A program made the translations under genes and the position numbers. This document shows, in pieces, positions 13,954 through 23,152 of a stretch of 35,014 nucleotides of DNA. Source of the DNA: Bacteroidota bacterium (GTDB lineage Bacteria > Bacteroidota > Bacteroidia > Bacteroidales > FEN-979); assembly GCA_026391845.1 (NCBI GenBank), contig JAPLDG010000220.1, positions 986-35,999 on the forward strand. The letters are read 5' to 3'. The notes under the pieces were generated by a model. The model had not been told where the DNA came from. It was given only the letters and a program-made list of their open reading frames with translations, and ran no database searches. Each line of letters starts with the position of its first letter. Position 1 is the first letter of the stretch.

Positions 13954-16101
13954 ATGAAGCAGATCAAGAAAGACATATTGATCCGTGTTTACCTGGTTTA
14001 TCTGGCAGTATTGCTGTTCGGGCTCTTTATTATTGCCAGGGTCGTGATGATCCAGCAATTTGAAAAGAAAGAGTTCATGGAGATGGCGAAAAAACAGGAG
14101 ATCCATCTGTTTGAAATGGAGGCGATCCGGGGCAACATCCTTGCCGATGACGGGAGCCTGCTCGCTGTTTCCATCCCCATCTTTGAAATTCGTATGGATG
14201 TGATGACCGACTCCCTCACCGATGAAGTGTTCCGCAACAACGCTGACTCCCTGTCAATTTGCCTGTCCCGGCTGTTTAAAAACCGGACACCCTCAGAATA
14301 TAAAGACATGTTATGGGAAGGCAGACGAAACCAGAACCGCTATCTCCTCATCCAGCGTGATGTGACCTATCCTGAGTTGAATCAAATGAGGCATTTCCCG
14401 ATTTTCAAACGGGGAAAATTCAAAGGCGGGCTGATCGTAATTGCTGACTATCAGCGTGAACTCCCTTATAAATCGCTTGCCAGGCGCATCATCGGATATG
14501 AAAGCGGAGAGAAGCCAAACCAGGTATTTGTAGGTCTGGAGGGGTCGTTTACAAAAAACCTGCAGGGCATAAAAGGTCAGCGTCTTATGCGCAGAATCGG
14601 TGGAATGGCCTGGGTGCCGGTTGACCCTGAAAGTCAGATTGAGCCTCAAAACGGCAATGACATCATCACCACCCTTGACGTGAACCTCCAGGACCTGGCG
14701 GAATCATCCCTTCGGAAAGAACTCATTGCCGACAGCGCCGATCATGGCTGTGTGATTCTGATGGAAGTGAAAACAGGTTACCTGCGCGCCATGGCCAATC
14801 TTGGCCTCACTAAAAAAGGAACCTACGAAGAGATTTTCAATTACGCCATTGGCGAGAGCCAGGAAACGGGTTCAACATTTAAACTGGCTTCGTTTCTGGT
14901 AGCCCTCGATGATCGAAAAATAGATCTCACCACACCTATCAATTGTTCCGGTGGCATTACCTATTACTCAGGTCGTAAGATGGAGGACTCCCATCATGGC
15001 CTTGGCGTGCTTCCCGCGCTGCAGGTATTTGAAAAATCGTCGAATGTGGGCACTTCAAGAATGGTCTATACAGCGTATTCCGACTCGGCTCAGGCATATA
15101 TCGACGGCCTTTACAGAATCGGGATCAACCGGCCACTCGGGCTTCAAATCGCAGGAGAAGGAAGGCCATATATTAAAAACACAAAAAGCAAATATTGGTC
15201 GGCACTTTCACTTCCATGGATATCAATTGGTTATGAAATATCCCTTGCCCCTATCCATCTCCTTGCACTTTATAATGCTGTGGCAAATAATGGCGTGATG
15301 GTGAAGCCGCTCTTTGTCAGGGAAATTCGTAAAAACGGCAGGTTGGTCCAGCGTTTTAACCCTGTGGTAATCAATCCTCAAATCGTATCTCCCTGGGCCA
15401 TTCAACAAGCCAAAAAATTGCTCGAAGGCGTTGTGGAAGAGGGCACAGGAGCCAGTATCAAGTCGCCAAACTATAAAATTGCCGGAAAAACAGGTACCTG
15501 TCAGATTGCAGCCGGAAACAAAGGCTATCGACAGGGAACAAAACAGGTTCAATATAAAGGATCATTTGTTGGATATTTTCCTGCCGACAATCCCAAATAT
15601 TCCTTGATTGTGGTTATTGTCAACCCCAGAAAAGGAAAGTACTATGGAGGAGCCGTGGCCGCACCGGTTTTTCGCGAATTATCGGATAAACTTTACGCGA
15701 TACGCCCCGACATTTTAATCCCGTTACCTGTTGACACGATCTCCTCACCCCTTCCTTACGCCCAGGCCGGTCAGATGAAAGATCTCTCAGAGGCATTTTC
15801 AATGCTCAGTATGAATGCCAGACCGGAGAACAGGCAATCAACCTGGGTACGTCCGGAAGAATCTTATCAAAAAATTGTTCTTTCCCCGGAAGCAGTTTCA
15901 AAAGGGATCATGCCCGATGTTTGCGGTATGGGACTGAAAGATGCGCTTTTCCTGCTGGAACAGCAAGGATTAAATGTGCTGGTGAATGGCAAGGGAACGG
16001 TTGTAAAACAATCCATCAACCCGGGGCTTACCATATATAAAGGTATGCCAGTGGTCATAGAACTGAAATTGAAACAAGACAAACCCAAAATGCAGGTATG
16101 A
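13954..16101 (+). CDS. ftsI: Septal peptidoglycan transpeptidase (FtsI/PBP3-type) with PASTA domain
   Basis: 715 residues, class B penicillin-binding protein. One N-terminal membrane anchor (about 9-32) precedes the pedestal domain beginning with IRGNILADDGSLLA. The transpeptidase motifs are all present: STFK (Ser307 nucleophile, Lys310), SSN (362-364) and KTGT (512-515). A single PASTA domain follows at the C-terminus (about 648-710, GIMPDVCGMGLKDALFLLEQ). It cross-links septal peptidoglycan as partner of FtsW. It starts 4 bp after the FtsL-like frame and ends in an ATGA overlap with murE. Confidence 0.95.
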   Translation: MKQIKKDILIRVYLVYLAVLLFGLFIIARVVMIQQFEKKEFMEMAKKQEIHLFEMEAIRGNILADDGSLLAVSIPIFEIRMDVMTDSLTDEVFRNNADSLSICLSRLFKNRTPSEYKDMLWEGRRNQNRYLLIQRDVTYPELNQMRHFPIFKRGKFKGGLIVIADYQRELPYKSLARRIIGYESGEKPNQVFVGLEGSFTKNLQGIKGQRLMRRIGGMAWVPVDPESQIEPQNGNDIITTLDVNLQDLAESSLRKELIADSADHGCVILMEVKTGYLRAMANLGLTKKGTYEEIFNYAIGESQETGSTFKLASFLVALDDRKIDLTTPINCSGGITYYSGRKMEDSHHGLGVLPALQVFEKSSNVGTSRMVYTAYSDSAQAYIDGLYRIGINRPLGLQIAGEGRPYIKNTKSKYWSALSLPWISIGYEISLAPIHLLALYNAVANNGVMVKPLFVREIRKNGRLVQRFNPVVINPQIVSPWAIQQAKKLLEGVVEEGTGASIKSPNYKIAGKTGTCQIAAGNKGYRQGTKQVQYKGSFVGYFPADNPKYSLIVVIVNPRKGKYYGGAVAAPVFRELSDKLYAIRPDILIPLPVDTISSPLPYAQAGQMKDLSEAFSMLSMNARPENRQSTWVRPEESYQKIVLSPEAVSKGIMPDVCGMGLKDALFLLEQQGLNVLVNGKGTVVKQSINPGLTIYKGMPVVIELKLKQDKPKMQV

Positions 16102-17570
16102 TGTTGCTCCGGGATATCATCGGTAATTTTTCGATTGCTGGCATTACAGGCAGTGCAGATATCGCCATCAGCGGGATTCAGTTCGATTCACGCAAAGTGA
16201 TGCCCGAAAACTTGTTTTTTGCCATTCGGGGCACGACATCAGACGGGCATGATTTTATTCAGACAGCCATTGAAAAAGGCGCATCAGCCATAGTTTGTGA
16301 AGAGTTGCCCGCAACTCCCCGGGATGGAATCACCTTCGTTGTTGTTTTGAAAACCAACCAGGCCCTGGGAGTGATGGCCTCCAGGTTCTTTGGCAATCCT
16401 TCTGAAAAACTCAAGTTGATCGGAGTGACAGGAACCAATGGAAAAACGACTATCGTGACATTGCTTTACAGATTGTTTCTGGAACTTGGTTATGGTGCCG
16501 GCCTGATATCAACCATCAGCAACAAGATAAACCAGACTGAACTACCGGCTACCCATACCACCCCCGATCCTGTACAACTGAATGAATTGCTCGCACGCAT
16601 GGTCAGAGAGGGTTGTGAATATTGTTTCATGGAGGTCTCCTCCCATGCAGTTGATCAGCAACGGATTGCCGGCCTTACCTTTGCCGGTGGCATTTTCACA
16701 AACCTCACCCATGATCATCTTGATTACCATAAAACCTTTGACGCCTATCTGCGGGCAAAAAAAACCTTTTTTGACCAACTTCCGGCATCCGCTTTCGCCC
16801 TGGTGAACAAAGATGATAAAAATGGCAGGGTAATGGCGCAAAATACACAGGCAGCCAGGGTTACCTACAGCCTTCAGGCTATGGCCGATTTCCGTTGCAA
16901 GATCATTGAAAACCAGTTTCATGGAATTCATCTGAATCTCGATGGCCACGAAGTATGGTTTAAACTTATCGGAACTTTCAATGCCTACAACCTGCTCGCT
17001 GTATATGGTGCAGCAGTACTGCTCGGACAGGACAAAACAGAGGTGCTGACAAGGCTTAGCCGGATGGAGCCTGTTGCCGGCCGGTTTAATTATGTGATGT
17101 CACCAGACAAGATCACAGGTATTGTTGATTATGCGCATACACCGGATGCATTGAAAAATGTACTGGAAACAATCAATGAAATCCGCTCACACCATGAGCA
17201 ACTGATCACAGTGGTTGGCGCAGGAGGAAACCGGGATGCAGCAAAGCGGCCTGTCATGGCTAAAATCGCTGCCAACCTAAGCAACAGGGTTATCCTTACT
17301 TCCGACAACCCGCGTTTTGAAGAACCTGAAACGATTGTAGCCGAAATGCAGGCAGGGGTAGAGATTCATCAGGCAAAAAAGGTGCTTGTCATTGTCAACC
17401 GCCTGGAAGCCATTAAAACCGCCTGTGCACTCGCCAAACCCGGAGACATCATCCTGATTGCCGGCAAAGGACATGAAAACTATCAGGAAATCAAAGGAAT
17501 AAGACACCATTTTGACGATAAGGAGACTCTTCAGGAAATTTTCGTGAACAATAACATGGTAAACCGCTAA
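16098..17570 (+). CDS. murE: UDP-MurNAc-tripeptide ligase MurE (meso-diaminopimelate-adding)
   Basis: 490 residues. It adds the third amino acid to UDP-MurNAc-L-Ala-D-Glu, using ATP. The P-loop is GTNGKTT (112-118). The fold-specific FN..N adenine-contact motif is intact (Asn295, Asn298 in [10 protein letters not shown]). DNPR (403-406) indicates meso-diaminopimelate as the substrate rather than lysine. The KxxxF segment that holds the carbamylated lysine lies in [10 protein letters not shown]. It starts inside the ftsI stop (ATGA), and a second ATG three bases later would also serve. Confidence 0.95.
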
Positions 17571-17574
17571 CCCT

Positions 17575-18828
17575 ATGTTGTACTATCTGTTTACATGGTT
17601 GCATAAAGCATTCAACATCCCCGGAGCCGGTGTATTTCAATACATTTCATTCAGGGCGGCTGCGGCGCTGATCACCTCGTTGTTCATTTCAATGATCATC
17701 GGAAAGCGGCTGATCGACTTCCTGCGGAAAAAACAGGTCGGTGAAACAGTGCGTGACCTGGGACTGGAAGGGCAAACGATGAAACAAGGAACCCCGACGA
17801 TGGGCGGTCTTATCATCCTGGCCGCCATCCTGATTCCATCCCTGCTGTTTGCAAAGCTGAACAACCTTTACATCATCGTGATCCTGGTAGCCACGGTATG
17901 GCTGGGATTGATCGGCTTTCTCGATGACTACATCAAAGTTTTTAAAAAAGATAAAAAAGGGTTGCCAGGCAAATTGAAAATCCTCGGACAGGTGGGAATT
18001 GGTCTGATCGTTGGCTTCACCATGTACTTCAGCGACAGCATTGTGATCCGTGAGCGGGTAAGACAAACCGCCTATGTACCCACCGCCGATGTTTTTGCCA
18101 TGGAATCAACCACGGATAAAAGTAGAATATTCTCCAAAACACCTGTAAAATCAACTAAAACGACCATCCCATTTGTAAAAAACAACGAGTTTGATTACAG
18201 TACATTCGTTTCATGGATTGGTGAAGGTGCAAAAAAATGGACCTGGCTGGCGTTTATCCCCATTGTCATATTTATCATCATCGCTGTTTCGAACGGAGCA
18301 AATCTCACGGATGGTCTTGACGGGCTTGCAACCGGTTCATCGGCCATTATCGGACTCACCCTGGGGGTTCTCGCCTATGTTTCAGGCAATATTGTGTTCG
18401 CCAATTATCTGAATATCATGTACATTCCAAACACAGGTGAGCTCACCATTTACATTTCGGCATTTGTTGGCGCGTGCATCGGATTTCTTTGGTATAACTC
18501 TTTCCCGGCCCAGGTATTCATGGGAGATACCGGGAGTCTGGCCCTGGGGGGAATCATTGCCGTTTTTGCCATCCTGATTCGCAAAGAGATCCTCATCCCG
18601 ATTTTTTGCGGAGTCTTTCTCGCTGAAAACCTGTCGGTGGTAATGCAGGTCACCTGGTTCAAATATACAAAACACAAGTATGGGGCGGGGCGCCGGATAT
18701 TCAAAATGTCGCCCCTTCATCACCATTTTCAAAAACTTGGCTATCATGAGTCAAAGATCGTGATGAGATTTTTGATCGTTGGCATCATGCTGGCCGTTTT
18801 AACCATTGTCACACTCAAACTAAGATAG
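17575..18828 (+). CDS. mraY: Phospho-MurNAc-pentapeptide transferase MraY
   Basis: 417 residues, polytopic membrane enzyme that makes lipid I from UDP-MurNAc-pentapeptide and undecaprenyl phosphate. Signatures are [11 protein letters not shown], the aspartate-rich [49 protein letters not shown] and the terminal [18 protein letters not shown]. The extra soluble segment around residues 155-210 is expected for the longer Bacteroidota form. It begins 4 bp after murE and its stop lies 5 bp before the truncated murD gene. Confidence 0.96.
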
Positions 18829-18833
18829 AACCC

Positions 18834-19382
18834 ATGACATTCGAAGCCCTCGCAAGACAAGGACAAACAACCGTATATCATTCACTGGTGGCCTCCATCG
18901 GTCCTAAGATCCGTGAAATCCGGAAAGAGTTTATCAAGGAGAGCTTTTATGGATTTCAGCAGGTTGAGCATCGCCTCGAAACCGTTGTAATCATCAAAGA
19001 CATGGAATTTATCAACGATTCTAAATCATCAACCGTTAATTCTACCTGGTTTGCCCTGGAAAGCACGCTGCGACCGATCATCTGGATCGTAGGAGGCGTT
19101 GAGCCCGGTAACGATTATTCCATCCTGCGTAACCTTGTACGAACAAAGGTAAAAGGAATGATATGCCTTGGATTAGACACATCCAGCATTCATGAAGCTT
19201 TTGAAGAGCTTGAGATCCCCATGGTTGATGCATTGTCGATGGAAGAAGCAGTTCAGACTGCTTATTACATGGGGGCCAGCGGAGATGCGGTTCTGCTGTC
19301 GCCTGCATGTCCGTCGTTCGACCTTTTCGACGACTACGAAGAGCGTGGAAAAGCATTTCGCAAAGCAGTTAAAAATCTATAA
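18834..19382 (+). CDS. murD: MurD C-terminal (glutamate-binding) domain only; N-terminal and ATP-binding domains absent
   Basis: 182 residues at the position where murD (about 440-450 residues) is expected. The sequence aligns with only the last 40% of MurD. There is no Rossmann-like UDP-binding domain and no GTNGKTT P-loop; mraY ends 5 bp upstream, leaving no room for them. The C-terminal signatures are intact: VEHRLE (45-50), NDSKSSTVNSTW (61-72), GGVEPGNDY and LLSPACPSFDLFDDYEERG (154-172), the glutamate-binding residues of domain 3. The stub before it corresponds to the end of the central domain, but the ATP-contacting G-x-H-N-x-x-N motif reads GQTTVYH (10-16), with both Asn lost, while MurE and MurC in this window keep theirs. 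It cannot be an active ligase alone. The start is the only ATG at the junction. A complete MurD elsewhere, a split enzyme or a deletion are all possible. Confidence 0.85.
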   Translation: MTFEALARQGQTTVYHSLVASIGPKIREIRKEFIKESFYGFQQVEHRLETVVIIKDMEFINDSKSSTVNSTWFALESTLRPIIWIVGGVEPGNDYSILRNLVRTKVKGMICLGLDTSSIHEAFEELEIPMVDALSMEEAVQTAYYMGASGDAVLLSPACPSFDLFDDYEERGKAFRKAVKNL

Positions 19383-19394
19383 GCCGGTTTCTGC

Positions 19395-20606
19395 ATGCTC
19401 AAAATGGCCAAAGATATTAAGGGAGATAAGGTGATCTGGATCGTCGTCGTGATCCTTTGCGTTTTTTCATTGCTTGCCGTTTACAGTTCAACCGGCACGC
19501 TTGCCTATAAAAAACAGCAAGGCAATACGGAGTATTACCTTTTTAAACATTTCATGATCCTGATTTTCGGACTGGGACTTATGTATGTTACCCACCTTGT
19601 GAAGTACACCTATTTTTCCCGGATCTCACAAATCGGGTTGTTCCTTACCTTCCCTTTGCTGCTCGTAACGCTGATTTCCGGAACAAACCTCAATGAAGCA
19701 AACCGGTGGCTTACTGTTCCGATCGTAAACCTGACCTTTCAGAGTTCCGATGTGGCGAAACTCTTTCTCATCATGTATCTTGCCAGGGTGCTCAGCAAGA
19801 AACAGGAACTAGTCCAGGATTTTCGCAAAGGATTTCTGCCGGTGATCATTCCCGTGATCGTGGTTACCCTGTTGATCCTGCCGGCCAACTTTTCAACCGC
19901 CGCCATTCTGTTTGTCACCTGCATCGTGCTGATGTTCATCGGTCGCATCAGCCTGAAATACATGGTTTCACTTGCATTGCTTGGCATTGCAGGAATTGTG
20001 ATGATCTTCATGCTGTCAAAAACATTTCCTGCCCTGTTTCCCCGCGGAACAACCTGGGTTGCACGCATCGATCACTTCATCAACAAACAAGAGGCGGATC
20101 CTGACGCCACCTACCAGGTTGACCAGGCTAAAATTGCAATCGTGCAGGGAGGAATACTCGGTAAATCACCAGGGAAAAGCACGCAGCGAAATTTCCTGCC
20201 TCATCCCTATTCCGATTTCATATTTGCCATTATCATTGAAGAGTATGGACTGGTTGGAGGCAGTTTCGTGTTATTGCTGTACCTGATTTTGTTTTTCCGT
20301 GTAATCCGCATCGCTACTAAAAGCCAGGGAAATTTCGGTTCGCTCCTGAGCATCGGGATTGGTTTCAGCCTGGTATTCCAGGCGCTCATCAACATGGCAG
20401 TGGCTGTTAACCTGTTTCCGGTTACCGGTCAAACCCTTCCCCTGGTCAGCATGGGCGGAACATCTATCTGGTTTACAAGCATTTCACTCGGAATTATCTT
20501 GAGTGTCAGCCGTACAGCCGAAATTGAAACCAAGGATGGTACCGAGGTCGAAATTCTGCAGGAACCAAATCTGAGTAAAAACCTTAAAACGGTTCCGGCC
20601 CTATGA
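19395..20606 (+). CDS. ftsW: Septal peptidoglycan polymerase FtsW
   Basis: 403 residues with about ten membrane segments, SEDS-family glycosyltransferase that polymerises lipid II at the septum with FtsI. Signatures are NEANRWLTVP, FQSSDVAKLFLIMYLAR (family QPSE/K region), RIDHFINKQEADPDATYQV, QAKIAIVQGGILGKSPGKST and the C-terminal NLFPVTGQTLPLVSMGGTS. ATGs at 19395 and 19404 are both possible; the second starts MAKDIKGDK. It lies 12 bp after the murD remnant and overlaps murG by 4 bp (ATGA). Confidence 0.96.
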   Translation: MLKMAKDIKGDKVIWIVVVILCVFSLLAVYSSTGTLAYKKQQGNTEYYLFKHFMILIFGLGLMYVTHLVKYTYFSRISQIGLFLTFPLLLVTLISGTNLNEANRWLTVPIVNLTFQSSDVAKLFLIMYLARVLSKKQELVQDFRKGFLPVIIPVIVVTLLILPANFSTAAILFVTCIVLMFIGRISLKYMVSLALLGIAGIVMIFMLSKTFPALFPRGTTWVARIDHFINKQEADPDATYQVDQAKIAIVQGGILGKSPGKSTQRNFLPHPYSDFIFAIIIEEYGLVGGSFVLLLYLILFFRVIRIATKSQGNFGSLLSIGIGFSLVFQALINMAVAVNLFPVTGQTLPLVSMGGTSIWFTSISLGIILSVSRTAEIETKDGTEVEILQEPNLSKNLKTVPAL

Positions 20607-23152
20607 TACGAGTCATCATCAGCGGAGGAGGTACCGGCGGGCATATATTCCCGGCAATAGCCATTGCCAATGCCCTGAGGGCAAAAGTCGTGGATATCGA
20701 CATCCTTTTTATCGGCGCTAAAGGGCGGATGGAGATGGAAAAAGTGCCTAATGCAGGGTATGTGATCAAAGGCCTTCCCATCAGCGGATTCCAGCGACGG
20801 CTGACCTTGAAAAACCTCTCCTTTCCTTTTAAACTGGCCGACAGCCTCCTGAAGGCACGTTCAATCATCGCGAAGTTTAATCCGGATGTGGTCATTGGCG
20901 TAGGTGGTTACGCCAGCGGGCCGACCTTGCGCATGGCTGCCTATAAAAAAATCCCGTCGCTCATCCAGGAACAGAATTCATTTCCTGGTGTAACCAACAG
21001 ACTCCTGGGCGGCAGAGTTCAAAAAATCTGTGTGGCGTATGAAGGCATGAGCCATTATTTTCCGGAAAGTAAAATTGTGCTTACCGGAAATCCGATCCGG
21101 CAGGATCTGGTGCAGATTTCAGGCAAGAAGGACGAGGCAATGAAACATTTCGGGCTGATTCCACACGCAAAGACCCTGCTGGTGATCGGTGGCAGCCTTG
21201 GTGCAGGAACAATCAACCAGGCCATGCTGAAATTTATCAGGGAATTTGGCTCCAATGACCAGATTCAAATACTCTGGCAGACAGGAAAAAATTATTACGA
21301 AAATGTCATTGAGAGCGCACAGCGCGACAAATTACAAATTAAAAATTACGAATTACAAAAACTGGTCATTCTGCCATTTATTGACCGCATGGATCTGGCC
21401 TATGCCGCCGCCGATCTCATTGTATCCCGTGCCGGCGCCATTGCCATTTCTGAACTATGCGTCGTTGGGAAACCGGCTATTCTGGTTCCGTCGCCCAATG
21501 TAGCTGAAGACCACCAGATGAAAAATGCCCGGGCCATTGTATCCCGGAACGCCGCCTTGCTGATTCCTGATGCAGAAGCCGTTGGCACCCTGGGAAAAAC
21601 AATCCTTGAGACCTTCGGGAACGAAAATTTACAATCAAACCTGAAAAAAAACATTGCAGCCCTTGGAATTACGGATGCCGCCGATAAAATCGCAGAGGTG
21701 GCTTTGTCGATGATAAAAATGAACACCGGAACCGTTCATCGCAAATCTACCTTCATAAATCTCAAATCCGTCTATTTTCTGGGCATTGGCGGCATCGGCA
21801 TGAGCGCCCTTGCCCGGTACTATAAATCCAGGGGAGCCTCTGTTTCAGGCTACGACAAAACTCCAACGGCACTAACCGATCAGCTGATCAGCGAAGGGAT
21901 GCATATCCATTTTACAGATGATGTAAGCCTTTTGCCCGCCAATCCTGACCTTGTGGTTTATACCCCTGCCATTCCCGCAGATCATCAGGAGTTCTGCTTT
22001 TTGAAGGCTCAATCTTTCCCGATGAAAAAAAGGGCTGAGGTGCTGGGCATGATTTCTGATAATTACAAAACCATCGCCGTGGCAGGGACCCACGGAAAAA
22101 CCACTACATCTACCATGATTGCCCACATGTTGCGAACAGCCGGCGCTGATACAATTGCATTCCTGGGGGGCATTTCCAGAAACTATGGCACAAATTTCCT
22201 GGATGAGTCTCAGCTTCACTCAGAAAAAATGTCGCCCGGCGACAAGATCAATGGTTCTTTCTGTGTTGTAGAGGCAGATGAATATGATAAATCCTTTTTG
22301 CAGCTTAATCCTTATATTGCCGTTATCACTTCAGCAGATCCTGATCATCTTGACATTTACGGAAGCCACGACGACATGAAAAGGAGCTTCGCTGAGTTTA
22401 CATCGAAAATTGTCAAAGGCGGGTCACTGGTCATGAAAACCGGGACTATGGTTGCCCCTGTCAATAAAACCGGGTACAGCATTTTTGATTACGCACTCAA
22501 CACAGATGCAGCCTATTATGCCAAAAATATCCGTGTTGAAGACGGTCTGTTTCACTTTGATTTTGTCGGCCCAACCGGTATGGTAAAGGGTCTTGTTCTC
22601 GGTGTTCCGGGAAAATTCAACCTTGAAAATGCCATCGCTGCACTTACCGTCGGGCAACTGACGGGCATTGATGAAGAGGATCTGCGAAAGGCATTCCTTA
22701 CCTATACAGGCGTGCAGCGCCGGTTTGAGTTCAGGATCCGACGCCCTGATCTTGTTTACATTGACGACTATGCACATCATCCTGAGGAGCTCAGGGCTTG
22801 CATCAGCGCTGCGCGGGAACTTTACCCGCTGAAAAAAATCACCGGAGTGTTCCAGCCGCATCTCTTTTCACGAACAAGGGACCTCGCCCATGATTTTGCC
22901 AGGAGCCTTGAATTGCTCGACGAGTTGATTTTGCTTGATATTTACCCTGCCCGTGAAAAACCAATTGCAGGGGTAACATCACAAATAGTGCTTGATGAGG
23001 TAAATCTTCAGCATAAAAAACTGGTCCGGAAGGAGGACCTTCTTACTGAAATCCGGGACTGTAAACCAGAAGTTTTACTTACGCTGGGGGCCGGGGATAT
23101 TGATCAGTTCGTAATCCCGATCACTGACTTGCTTTCACCAATCAAAGGTTAG
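20603..23152 (+). CDS. murG/murC: MurG-MurC fusion protein
   Basis: 849 residues in one open frame. Residues 1 to about 370 are MurG, which adds GlcNAc to lipid I to make lipid II: GGGTGGH (8-14), GVGGYASGP, QEQNSFPGVTNR and VSRAGAIAISEL are present. Residues about 385-849 are MurC, which ligates L-Ala to UDP-MurNAc: YFLGIGGIGMSALARYY, P-loop GTHGKTT (495-501), adenine-contact FNLEN (Asn673, Asn676), YAHHPEE and the FQPHLFSRTR region. The join (AEVALSMIKMNTGTVHRKS) is only about 12-15 residues, so MurG lost its stop codon. An ATG at 21719 (residue 373) could still start MurC separately. The usual dcw order has two separate genes here. A heptamer-like repeat lies in the MurG C-lobe. Confidence 0.93.
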   Translation: MIRVIISGGGTGGHIFPAIAIANALRAKVVDIDILFIGAKGRMEMEKVPNAGYVIKGLPISGFQRRLTLKNLSFPFKLADSLLKARSIIAKFNPDVVIGVGGYASGPTLRMAAYKKIPSLIQEQNSFPGVTNRLLGGRVQKICVAYEGMSHYFPESKIVLTGNPIRQDLVQISGKKDEAMKHFGLIPHAKTLLVIGGSLGAGTINQAMLKFIREFGSNDQIQILWQTGKNYYENVIESAQRDKLQIKNYELQKLVILPFIDRMDLAYAAADLIVSRAGAIAISELCVVGKPAILVPSPNVAEDHQMKNARAIVSRNAALLIPDAEAVGTLGKTILETFGNENLQSNLKKNIAALGITDAADKIAEVALSMIKMNTGTVHRKSTFINLKSVYFLGIGGIGMSALARYYKSRGASVSGYDKTPTALTDQLISEGMHIHFTDDVSLLPANPDLVVYTPAIPADHQEFCFLKAQSFPMKKRAEVLGMISDNYKTIAVAGTHGKTTTSTMIAHMLRTAGADTIAFLGGISRNYGTNFLDESQLHSEKMSPGDKINGSFCVVEADEYDKSFLQLNPYIAVITSADPDHLDIYGSHDDMKRSFAEFTSKIVKGGSLVMKTGTMVAPVNKTGYSIFDYALNTDAAYYAKNIRVEDGLFHFDFVGPTGMVKGLVLGVPGKFNLENAIAALTVGQLTGIDEEDLRKAFLTYTGVQRRFEFRIRRPDLVYIDDYAHHPEELRACISAARELYPLKKITGVFQPHLFSRTRDLAHDFARSLELLDELILLDIYPAREKPIAGVTSQIVLDEVNLQHKKLVRKEDLLTEIRDCKPEVLLTLGAGDIDQFVIPITDLLSPIKG
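21329..21356 (+). repeat. Short heptamer array (RAATTAM)4 inside murG
   Basis: Four 7-bp units AAATTAC, AAATTAA, AAATTAC and GAATTAC, followed by degenerate AAAAACT. They encode the lysine/glutamine-rich DKLQIKNYELQK loop just before the conserved LVILPFIDRMDLAYAAADL of the MurG C-lobe. The loop is a variable region in MurG, so the repeat is tolerated. Confidence 0.8.

Follow-up and report, generated by a model that had tools for sequence, protein, structure and literature searches.

The forward-strand gene at 18834..19382 of the 35,014-nucleotide stretch analysed here (the window) encodes domain 3 of MurD together with the end of domain 2. We refer to this truncated gene as the stub and to its 182-aa product as MurD-C. 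Within the order Bacteroidales the stub has taken the place of full-length murD in several independent events, nearly all of them in genomes with the MurD2-MurL pair and no MurI. Its product is conserved and subject to purifying selection; it evolves faster than its neighbours yet is far from free. As an explanation of the whole we favour, as fairly probable, a free and non-catalytic MurD-C that would have originated as a nested product of murD and would have been retained after the takeover by MurD2-MurL.

A stand-alone MurD domain 3 between mraY and ftsW

All features described here are on the forward strand. The stub is preceded by murE (16098..17570; NF001126, 637 bits) and mraY (17575..18828; TIGR00445, 324 bits) and is followed by ftsW (19395..20606; TIGR02614, E 1.4e-83 and 281 bits, below the cut-off of 337.5; Pfam FTSW_RODA_SPOVE, 249 bits) and by a murG-murC fusion that forms one frame of 849 aa (20603..23152; TIGR01133 over residues 1-366 and TIGR01082 over residues 390-836). 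TIGR01087 (murD) matches the stub over profile positions 274-440 of 441 with 150.4 bits, the cut-off being 212, and Pfam Mur_ligase_C matches residues 46-159 with 27.6 bits, slightly below its cut-off of 28.4. The frame and the TIGR01087 match bear out the initial annotation, which had read the murD slot as a short 182-aa gene. As it had described, the ATG is located 5 nt past the mraY stop and the frame closes ahead of ftsW, the four domain-3 motifs VEHRLE, NDSKSST, LLSPAC and DLFDDYEERG are all found, and the UDP-binding domain and P-loop have no space after mraY, where nothing at the window locus aligned to domain 1 or the P-loop of MurD. Domain 3 of the stub is mostly 43-53% identical to that of full-length MurD from other families in the order. 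The window sequence plus 50 relatives were used for an AlphaFold2 model, which had a mean pLDDT of 81; ten-residue blocks averaged about 84-97 from residue 51 onwards but about 40-63 over residues 1-50. The top solved Foldseek matches of this model are MurD structures, with some 140 columns aligned (7u35, E 1.4e-13, query TM 0.71). The profile match, the model and the conservation in relatives together identify the gene.

Based on the alignment, the start codon of the stub (18834..18836) corresponds to an internal Met of full-length Bacteroidota MurD, nine residues before GxHNxxN. Codons 1-40 (18834..18953) are the remnant of the end of domain 2 and have a low-confidence fold. Within them, codons 13-16 (18870..18881) are equivalent to the NxxN Asn pair that contacts adenine in full-length MurD. 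The window stub reads GQTTVYH here, T..H in place of the pair, so both Asn are gone, as had been noted initially, while the MurE (FNAYN) and MurC (FNLEN) of the window keep the motif. Domain 3 proper covers codons 41-182 (18954..19379), as delimited by the Pfam match and the pLDDT profile. It contains HRLE (18969..18980), whose His is found in 53/57 stubs and whose Arg is found in 48/57 (Lys in 8/57), NDS (19014..19022), whose Asp (E. coli D317) is present in all 57 stubs, and SPAC (19299..19310), whose Ser, Pro and Cys are unchanged in 23/23 stubs of family f1. Codon 91 (19104..19106), the equivalent of the Glu-contacting K348, is a Pro.

The loss of active-site residues extends to the stubs as a group. 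The K348 equivalent is found in 1/23 stubs of family f1 and 7/34 other stubs, as compared with 65/65 full-length MurDs. N268 is kept in 3/23 and 12/34 of these two groups, N271 in 1/23 and 7/34, and the Ser415 equivalent in 23/23 and 23/34, while His301 is kept in 53/57 stubs. The roles of these residues, other than those at the D182 and K348 positions, are the ones that we take them to have in MurD. The domain-3 signature is largely lost in stub lineages f2, f35, f80, f101 and part of f72. Compared with MurD itself (TIGR01087, the D-Glu ligase), the stub has the same domain 3 fold and sequence and the same slot between mraY and ftsW but is without domains 1 and 2. Lacking the UDP-binding domain, the P-loop, the carbamylated Lys and the adenine Asn pair, MurD-C cannot act as a ligase. 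The initial annotation had also called it a glutamate-binding domain. The identity of domain 3 stands, but glutamate binding is doubtful because the K348 equivalent is lost in 22/23 stubs of the family.

The selection on the stub was estimated from pairwise comparisons. Eight pairs (families f1, f59, f101 and f80) had a usable dS. Their omega was 0.031-0.088, and the likelihood ratio test against an omega of 1 gave 33-183. For the same pairs omega was 0.010-0.045 in MraY and 0.006-0.044 in FtsW (FtsW dS being saturated in the f80 pair), the stub value mostly being about twice that of these neighbours or more. Thirteen pairs were tried; the unused five were saturated (L027/L028, L126/L143, L032/L141), had a dS of 15.5 (L131/L153) or were near-identical (L022/L023). 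Seven non-independent f1 comparisons gave an omega of 0.047 in codons 2-40 and 0.067 in codons 41-182, indicating that the domain-2 remnant is constrained as strongly as domain 3. The short spacing to mraY in most stubs and the divergent stubs of families f2, f80 and f101 could be taken to mean that the stub is a dying relic, whose frame stays open merely for translational coupling from mraY to ftsW. Coupling, however, requires an open frame and not a conserved protein, and the low omega of the stub, together with the equal constraint on its remnant, makes this very unlikely. Decay of the gene, an option in the initial annotation, is thus rejected.

The source genome is a MAG in 343 contigs that is 93% complete, and a fragmented assembly could in principle have collapsed a full-length murD into the short frame. 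The recurrence of the stub, however, leaves this artefact a negligible probability. A stub is located between mraY and ftsW in all 15 relatives of the same genus that hold the locus (three further relatives, of 18 in total, have no mraY in the assembly) and in 6/6 genomes of the family sample beyond the genus. Altogether stubs were found in 58 survey genomes (57 and G264) and one named MAG (record CAMWVZ010000007.1, L110), some of them on contigs as long as 5.26 Mb (G279, another family) and 1.38 Mb. The gene order mraY-stub-ftsW is kept in 35/35 stub loci of one fetched set and in the named MAG, and the stub loci of another set are also flanked by mraY upstream and ftsW downstream. The view of the locus as an established truncated form, conserved among relatives, therefore stands.

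MurD2-MurL and the repeated loss of full-length murD

If MurD-C is no ligase, where is the MurD chemistry carried out? The genome of the window has one full-length MurD on contig C100 (TIGR01087, 304 bits), immediately behind a MurL homologue (the pair at G000:C100, L008:2-2541). The latter matches NF041275 with 243.8 bits (E 2.5e-72); the equivalog cut-off, set for Xanthomonadales, is 700, and the locus gave only 370 aa of frame. MurD2 of Xanthomonas oryzae is reported to ligate L-Glu, after which MurL acts as the epimerase (PMC8788868, PMC5808125), the L-Glu specificity being set by a Glu at the E. coli D182 position and an Arg at the K348 position (PMC8788868). Both residues are present in the MurD on C100 and in 40/40 other fetched MurD2s. 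The C100 locus resembles the X. oryzae pathway in that the putative MurL directly precedes a MurD carrying the diagnostic Glu and Arg, and a search of the genome revealed no MurI. Within the survey of 295 Bacteroidales genomes, 97 were MurL-positive and 198 MurL-negative, trivial MurL matches in G099 (40 bits) and G211 (29 bits) not being counted. MurI was over its cut-off in 0/97 MurL-positive genomes, as compared with 178/295 in the whole sample; weak MurI matches (1e-9 to 1e-12) occur in 11 MurL-positive genomes. The MurD chemistry thus appears to have moved to the pair on another contig, a predicted L-Glu ligase and epimerase. Of the suggestion that the stub is a decayed gene whose job moved elsewhere, the second half holds and the first does not. 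These results put the MurD2-MurL route in roughly one in three genomes sampled from an order whose phylum, Bacteroidota, is absent from the taxon list of PMC8788868; the domain-3 stub is unmentioned in the portions of that paper and of PMC5808125 used here.

The clean domain border of the stub would also be expected of a split MurD, in which another gene supplies domains 1-2 and the halves cooperate. Against this, six Mur_ligase_M proteins were found in the genome (MurE, MurC fused to MurG, MurF-Alr, an Mpl-like protein, FolC and MurD2), each of which has its own C-terminal domain, and no orphan gene for MurD domains 1-2 was found in the 93%-complete genome. A split enzyme, one of the forms suggested initially, is extremely improbable on this evidence, and we rejected it. 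The Mpl-like protein has murC and mpl as its best NCBIfam matches, both below cut-off. MurF and alanine racemase form a fusion on contig C286 (L009), with 819 aa within the stretch read. In G103, G206, G295 and G130 the MurL and MurD2 matches fall within one open frame of 885-949 aa and look fused.

The stub is closely associated with MurL. The 97 MurL-positive genomes comprise 37 with a stub, 52 with a full-length murD, three in which the locus is cut by contig or stretch ends, three without mraY in the assembly, and two (G101 and G204) in which no stub was found. Among the MurL-negative genomes, 168 (88 and 80) were examined singly, 28 others had a match and G041 and G194 had none; a stub was found in two of the 168 (G039 and G264, the latter 68% complete). 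Fisher's test on stub and full-length counts of 37/52 versus 2/159 gave a p of 3e-17, with relatedness ignored and seven short or cut rows omitted. Suspected stubs in G285, G076, G130 and G119 proved to be only contig ends. The G211 locus begins at contig base 1, G178 and G304 are short pieces presumed to be cut, and G261 and G183 have a full-length murD that runs into the end of the fetched stretch. G039 (L161, family f16) is 98% complete in 10 contigs and has a divergent stub but lacks MurL, any MurI match and a MurD over cut-off. The stub frame of G264 (L223:2763-3569) has 269 aa, apparently lengthened by repeat-like sequence that is also found around it. In G101 and G204 (family f78; L225 and L224), mraY has no ftsW behind it and, in G204, lies about 0.7 kb from murL. 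The stub is thus not required universally, and f78, together with the eroded stubs of f2, f35, f80 and f101, limits how essential MurD-C can be.

A separate observation concerns the 52 MurL-positive genomes with a full-length murD in the dcw cluster (L162-L213), which have a seemingly intact D-Glu-type MurD though no MurI is over cut-off. We considered whether these are already dead enzymes and rejected it: 12/13 active-site positions are kept in 51/51, N271 is kept in 49/51, and the full-length MurDs of 14 MurL-negative genomes are similar at these positions. G224, with a dcw murD frame of 447 aa, was omitted from the residue and context tables.

How often the stub arose was estimated from MraY and FtsW. 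The first tree had 112 rows, after nine f1 rows, those cut by contig ends and those lacking MraY or FtsW had been removed. On it the stub label requires 15 changes, of which at least nine are forced by well supported branches; some long branches meet and are placed with little certainty (the f4 pair, f101, and G039 with G032). In a 44-row subset under a mixture model, with the rows picked by hand per family after the first tree was seen, 11 changes were needed (six forced) and a single stub clade was rejected with a p-AU of 5.8e-5. Since a regain of domains 1-2 is unlikely, most of these changes are read as losses. Both forms occur within families f4, f6, f13, f27, f35, f50, f74 and f95. We also compared stubs of mixed families with their best-scoring matches. 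None of the 10 scored higher against a stub from outside its family than against the closest full-length domain 3 (L125 tied, at 157 bits), which argues against stub-to-stub copying; this closest full-length domain 3 is from the same family in only 2/10. Spread of one stub by transfer is made unlikely by the tree, the AU test and this comparison.

A start-like signal inside full-length murD

Most of the truncated genes begin at the same place. In 50/57 stubs, from 18/20 families, the first ATG past mraY aligns to a single column, that of the Met in M-x-x-E-x-L-A-x-x-G, the position being less certain for the most divergent stubs; in 36/57, from 12 families, the length is exactly 182 aa. In full-length Bacteroidota MurDs the same position, -9 relative to GxHNxxN, is Met in 134/142, as compared with a background Met frequency of 2.2%, and in six of the eight exceptions a Met is found 1-2 codons further upstream, two of these six being close relatives. 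In the murD frames of F. hydatis and Flavobacterium sp. SLB02 the internal ATG is codon 263 of 444. In this set, 77 of the 142, termed other Bacteroidota, came from the best 80 loci among the matches listed, ranked by likeness to the stub. Among four further species with a known structure, the aligned residue is Leu in E. coli and P. aeruginosa, Ile in A. baumannii and Met in S. agalactiae. A hydrophobic site in other phyla means that the Met may be partly structural, though Met is not generally required.

The nucleotides around this Met resemble those of a start site. Bacteroidetes start sites have no Shine-Dalgarno sequence; initiation there is accompanied by little structure, by A at -3, -6, -12 and -13 and by an abundance of A from -14 to -11 (PMC6847099). 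Before the internal Met, A is found at 69, 57, 61 and 80% at -14 to -11 and at 69% at -3, but at just 18% at -6, a position that is important according to the same source. A context model trained on mraY starts scored the internal Met at +2.9 in MurL-positive genomes, +0.8 in MurL-negative ones (14 genes) and +1.7 in other Bacteroidota, whereas other internal Mets scored about -3.4. With the amino acids held fixed, A was enriched (z +5.9 and +6.9) and G depleted (z -6.0 and -7.0) in MurL-positive genomes and other Bacteroidota, respectively, related genes being treated as independent. The effect was weak in the 14 genes from MurL-negative Bacteroidales (A z +1.9, G z -1.95). Other Mets gave A z of -2.3 to +1.0 and G z of +1.7 to +3.2, that is, no start-like signal. 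T showed no consistent rise near the internal Met, while A rises and G falls.

The signal is localized. Of the 430 offsets scanned, the top 14 are all located no more than 10 codons from the Met; the peak includes codons past the Met, and the seven codons directly upstream rank 17th in MurL-positive genomes and 6th in other Bacteroidota. In a whole-gene scan the internal murD region reached 22.2, the true starts of MurE, MraY and FtsW 14.9-16.0, and the interior maxima, which exclude the first 21 and last 12 codons, 7.8-10.6; the end of MraY, just ahead of the next start, reaches 15.8. The true murD start scored only 2.7 in the scan, presumably because most alignments start later; measured directly at 49 true starts, it gave an A z of +5.2 and a G z of -1.4. 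The signal was found at identical codons in Bacteroidia, Flavobacteriia and Sphingobacteriia analysed separately, and five Chitinophagia had no peak at the internal Met. The predicted mRNA structure is lowest at the internal Met among 21 sampled offsets. The homologous domain border of MurE had no start-like signal, and in the MurD2 of the same genomes, used as a negative control, Met was found in 0/40 and the signal was at most 1.7. Bacteroidota murD thus has a conserved candidate internal start codon in a start-like nucleotide context beyond what amino-acid constraint explains.

Could the signal serve something other than translation? An internal promoter, mRNA processing or loop composition might act at the nucleotide level and the Met might be structural, in which case stubs would use this ATG simply because no other is as close at the domain border, and the role of the stub would have been gained after truncation. 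The hydrophobic site in other phyla, the Met of S. agalactiae and the part of the signal that sits past the Met are in keeping with such an origin. The rise of A and fall of G without a consistent rise of T are not, nor are the replacement Mets 1-2 codons upstream in six of eight exceptions or the absence of the signal from the MurE border and MurD2. We consider a purely nucleotide-level origin unlikely.

MurD-C as a probable nested product and its relatives among known proteins

Repeated truncation, mostly at the same internal start codon, hints at a hidden second product of murD and a job for it. We consider it probable that murD in Bacteroidota is nested, the first ATG giving full MurD and the conserved internal ATG giving MurD-C in the same frame. 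MurD2, which would add L-Glu, and MurL, which would epimerise the product, would then make the long product dispensable, and deletions could remove domains 1-2 while the pre-existing short reading frame remains. The short form would be kept for a non-catalytic role, probably the binding of a protein. Extended to the phylum, we give somewhat better than even chances to murD encoding the D-Glu ligase plus a nested domain-3 protein with a non-catalytic role in the cell wall or division, the takeover by MurD2-MurL exposing the second gene as the sole murD remnant in perhaps at least nine lineages.

What MurD-C does is a guess. The protein has lost the contacts to adenine and Glu but has retained the domain and the HR-E, D317 and SP positions, which points to protein binding, and the slot between mraY and ftsW suggests that partners might be found there. 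Tentatively, with chances a little short of even, it may bind another protein of the cytoplasmic Mur/MraY/MurG/FtsW machinery as a scaffold or regulator; a MurG-based scaffold for Mur enzymes has been proposed in Bordetella (PMC6420597). A different kind of regulator would be a ligand-binding one. It might sense Glu or a UDP-MurNAc-peptide, or serve MurD2 or MurL as an allosteric subunit, and would answer a need to control the L-Glu route. The near-exclusive co-occurrence of the stub with MurL (37/97 versus 2/168) and the Ser415 equivalent in all f1 stubs fit with such a regulator. However, the K348 equivalent survives in only 1/23 f1 stubs and 7/34 others, and Ser415 in only 23/34 stubs beyond f1. 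The start signal, moreover, is also present in Bacteroidota fetched irrespective of MurL, and a short product would therefore predate MurL. A ligand-binding regulator is improbable on these grounds. From the initial suggestion of a split or regulatory MurD domain, it is the regulatory or structural option that remains likeliest, whereas the split is contradicted by the lack of orphan domains 1-2.

In textbooks murD is an essential gene with one function, and it is a target of antibiotics. The recurrent loss of catalysis with one domain retained amounts to a natural experiment, which suggests that domain 3 does something else; if true, a hidden product of about 20 kDa is predicted in much of the phylum. 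Among the titles and abstract openings listed for open-access papers, we found no description of a domain-3 stub or of an internal start in murD.

CheA-short and ClpB-short are known products of in-frame gene pairs with an internal start. As in those systems, an internal start in a large enzyme gene would give a free C-terminal part. The difference is that here the short product became the sole product several times independently, and its translation from full-length genes is a prediction. Mur-ligase folds are also used outside the MurC-F ladder in MurT/GatD and in the plastid MurE-like PAP11, which retain most of the ligase. The weaker Foldseek matches of the stub model include GatD/MurT chains and a single chain of a plastid RNA polymerase. 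With MurT/GatD and PAP11, MurD-C would share a use outside the ladder, but it consists of domain 3 alone.
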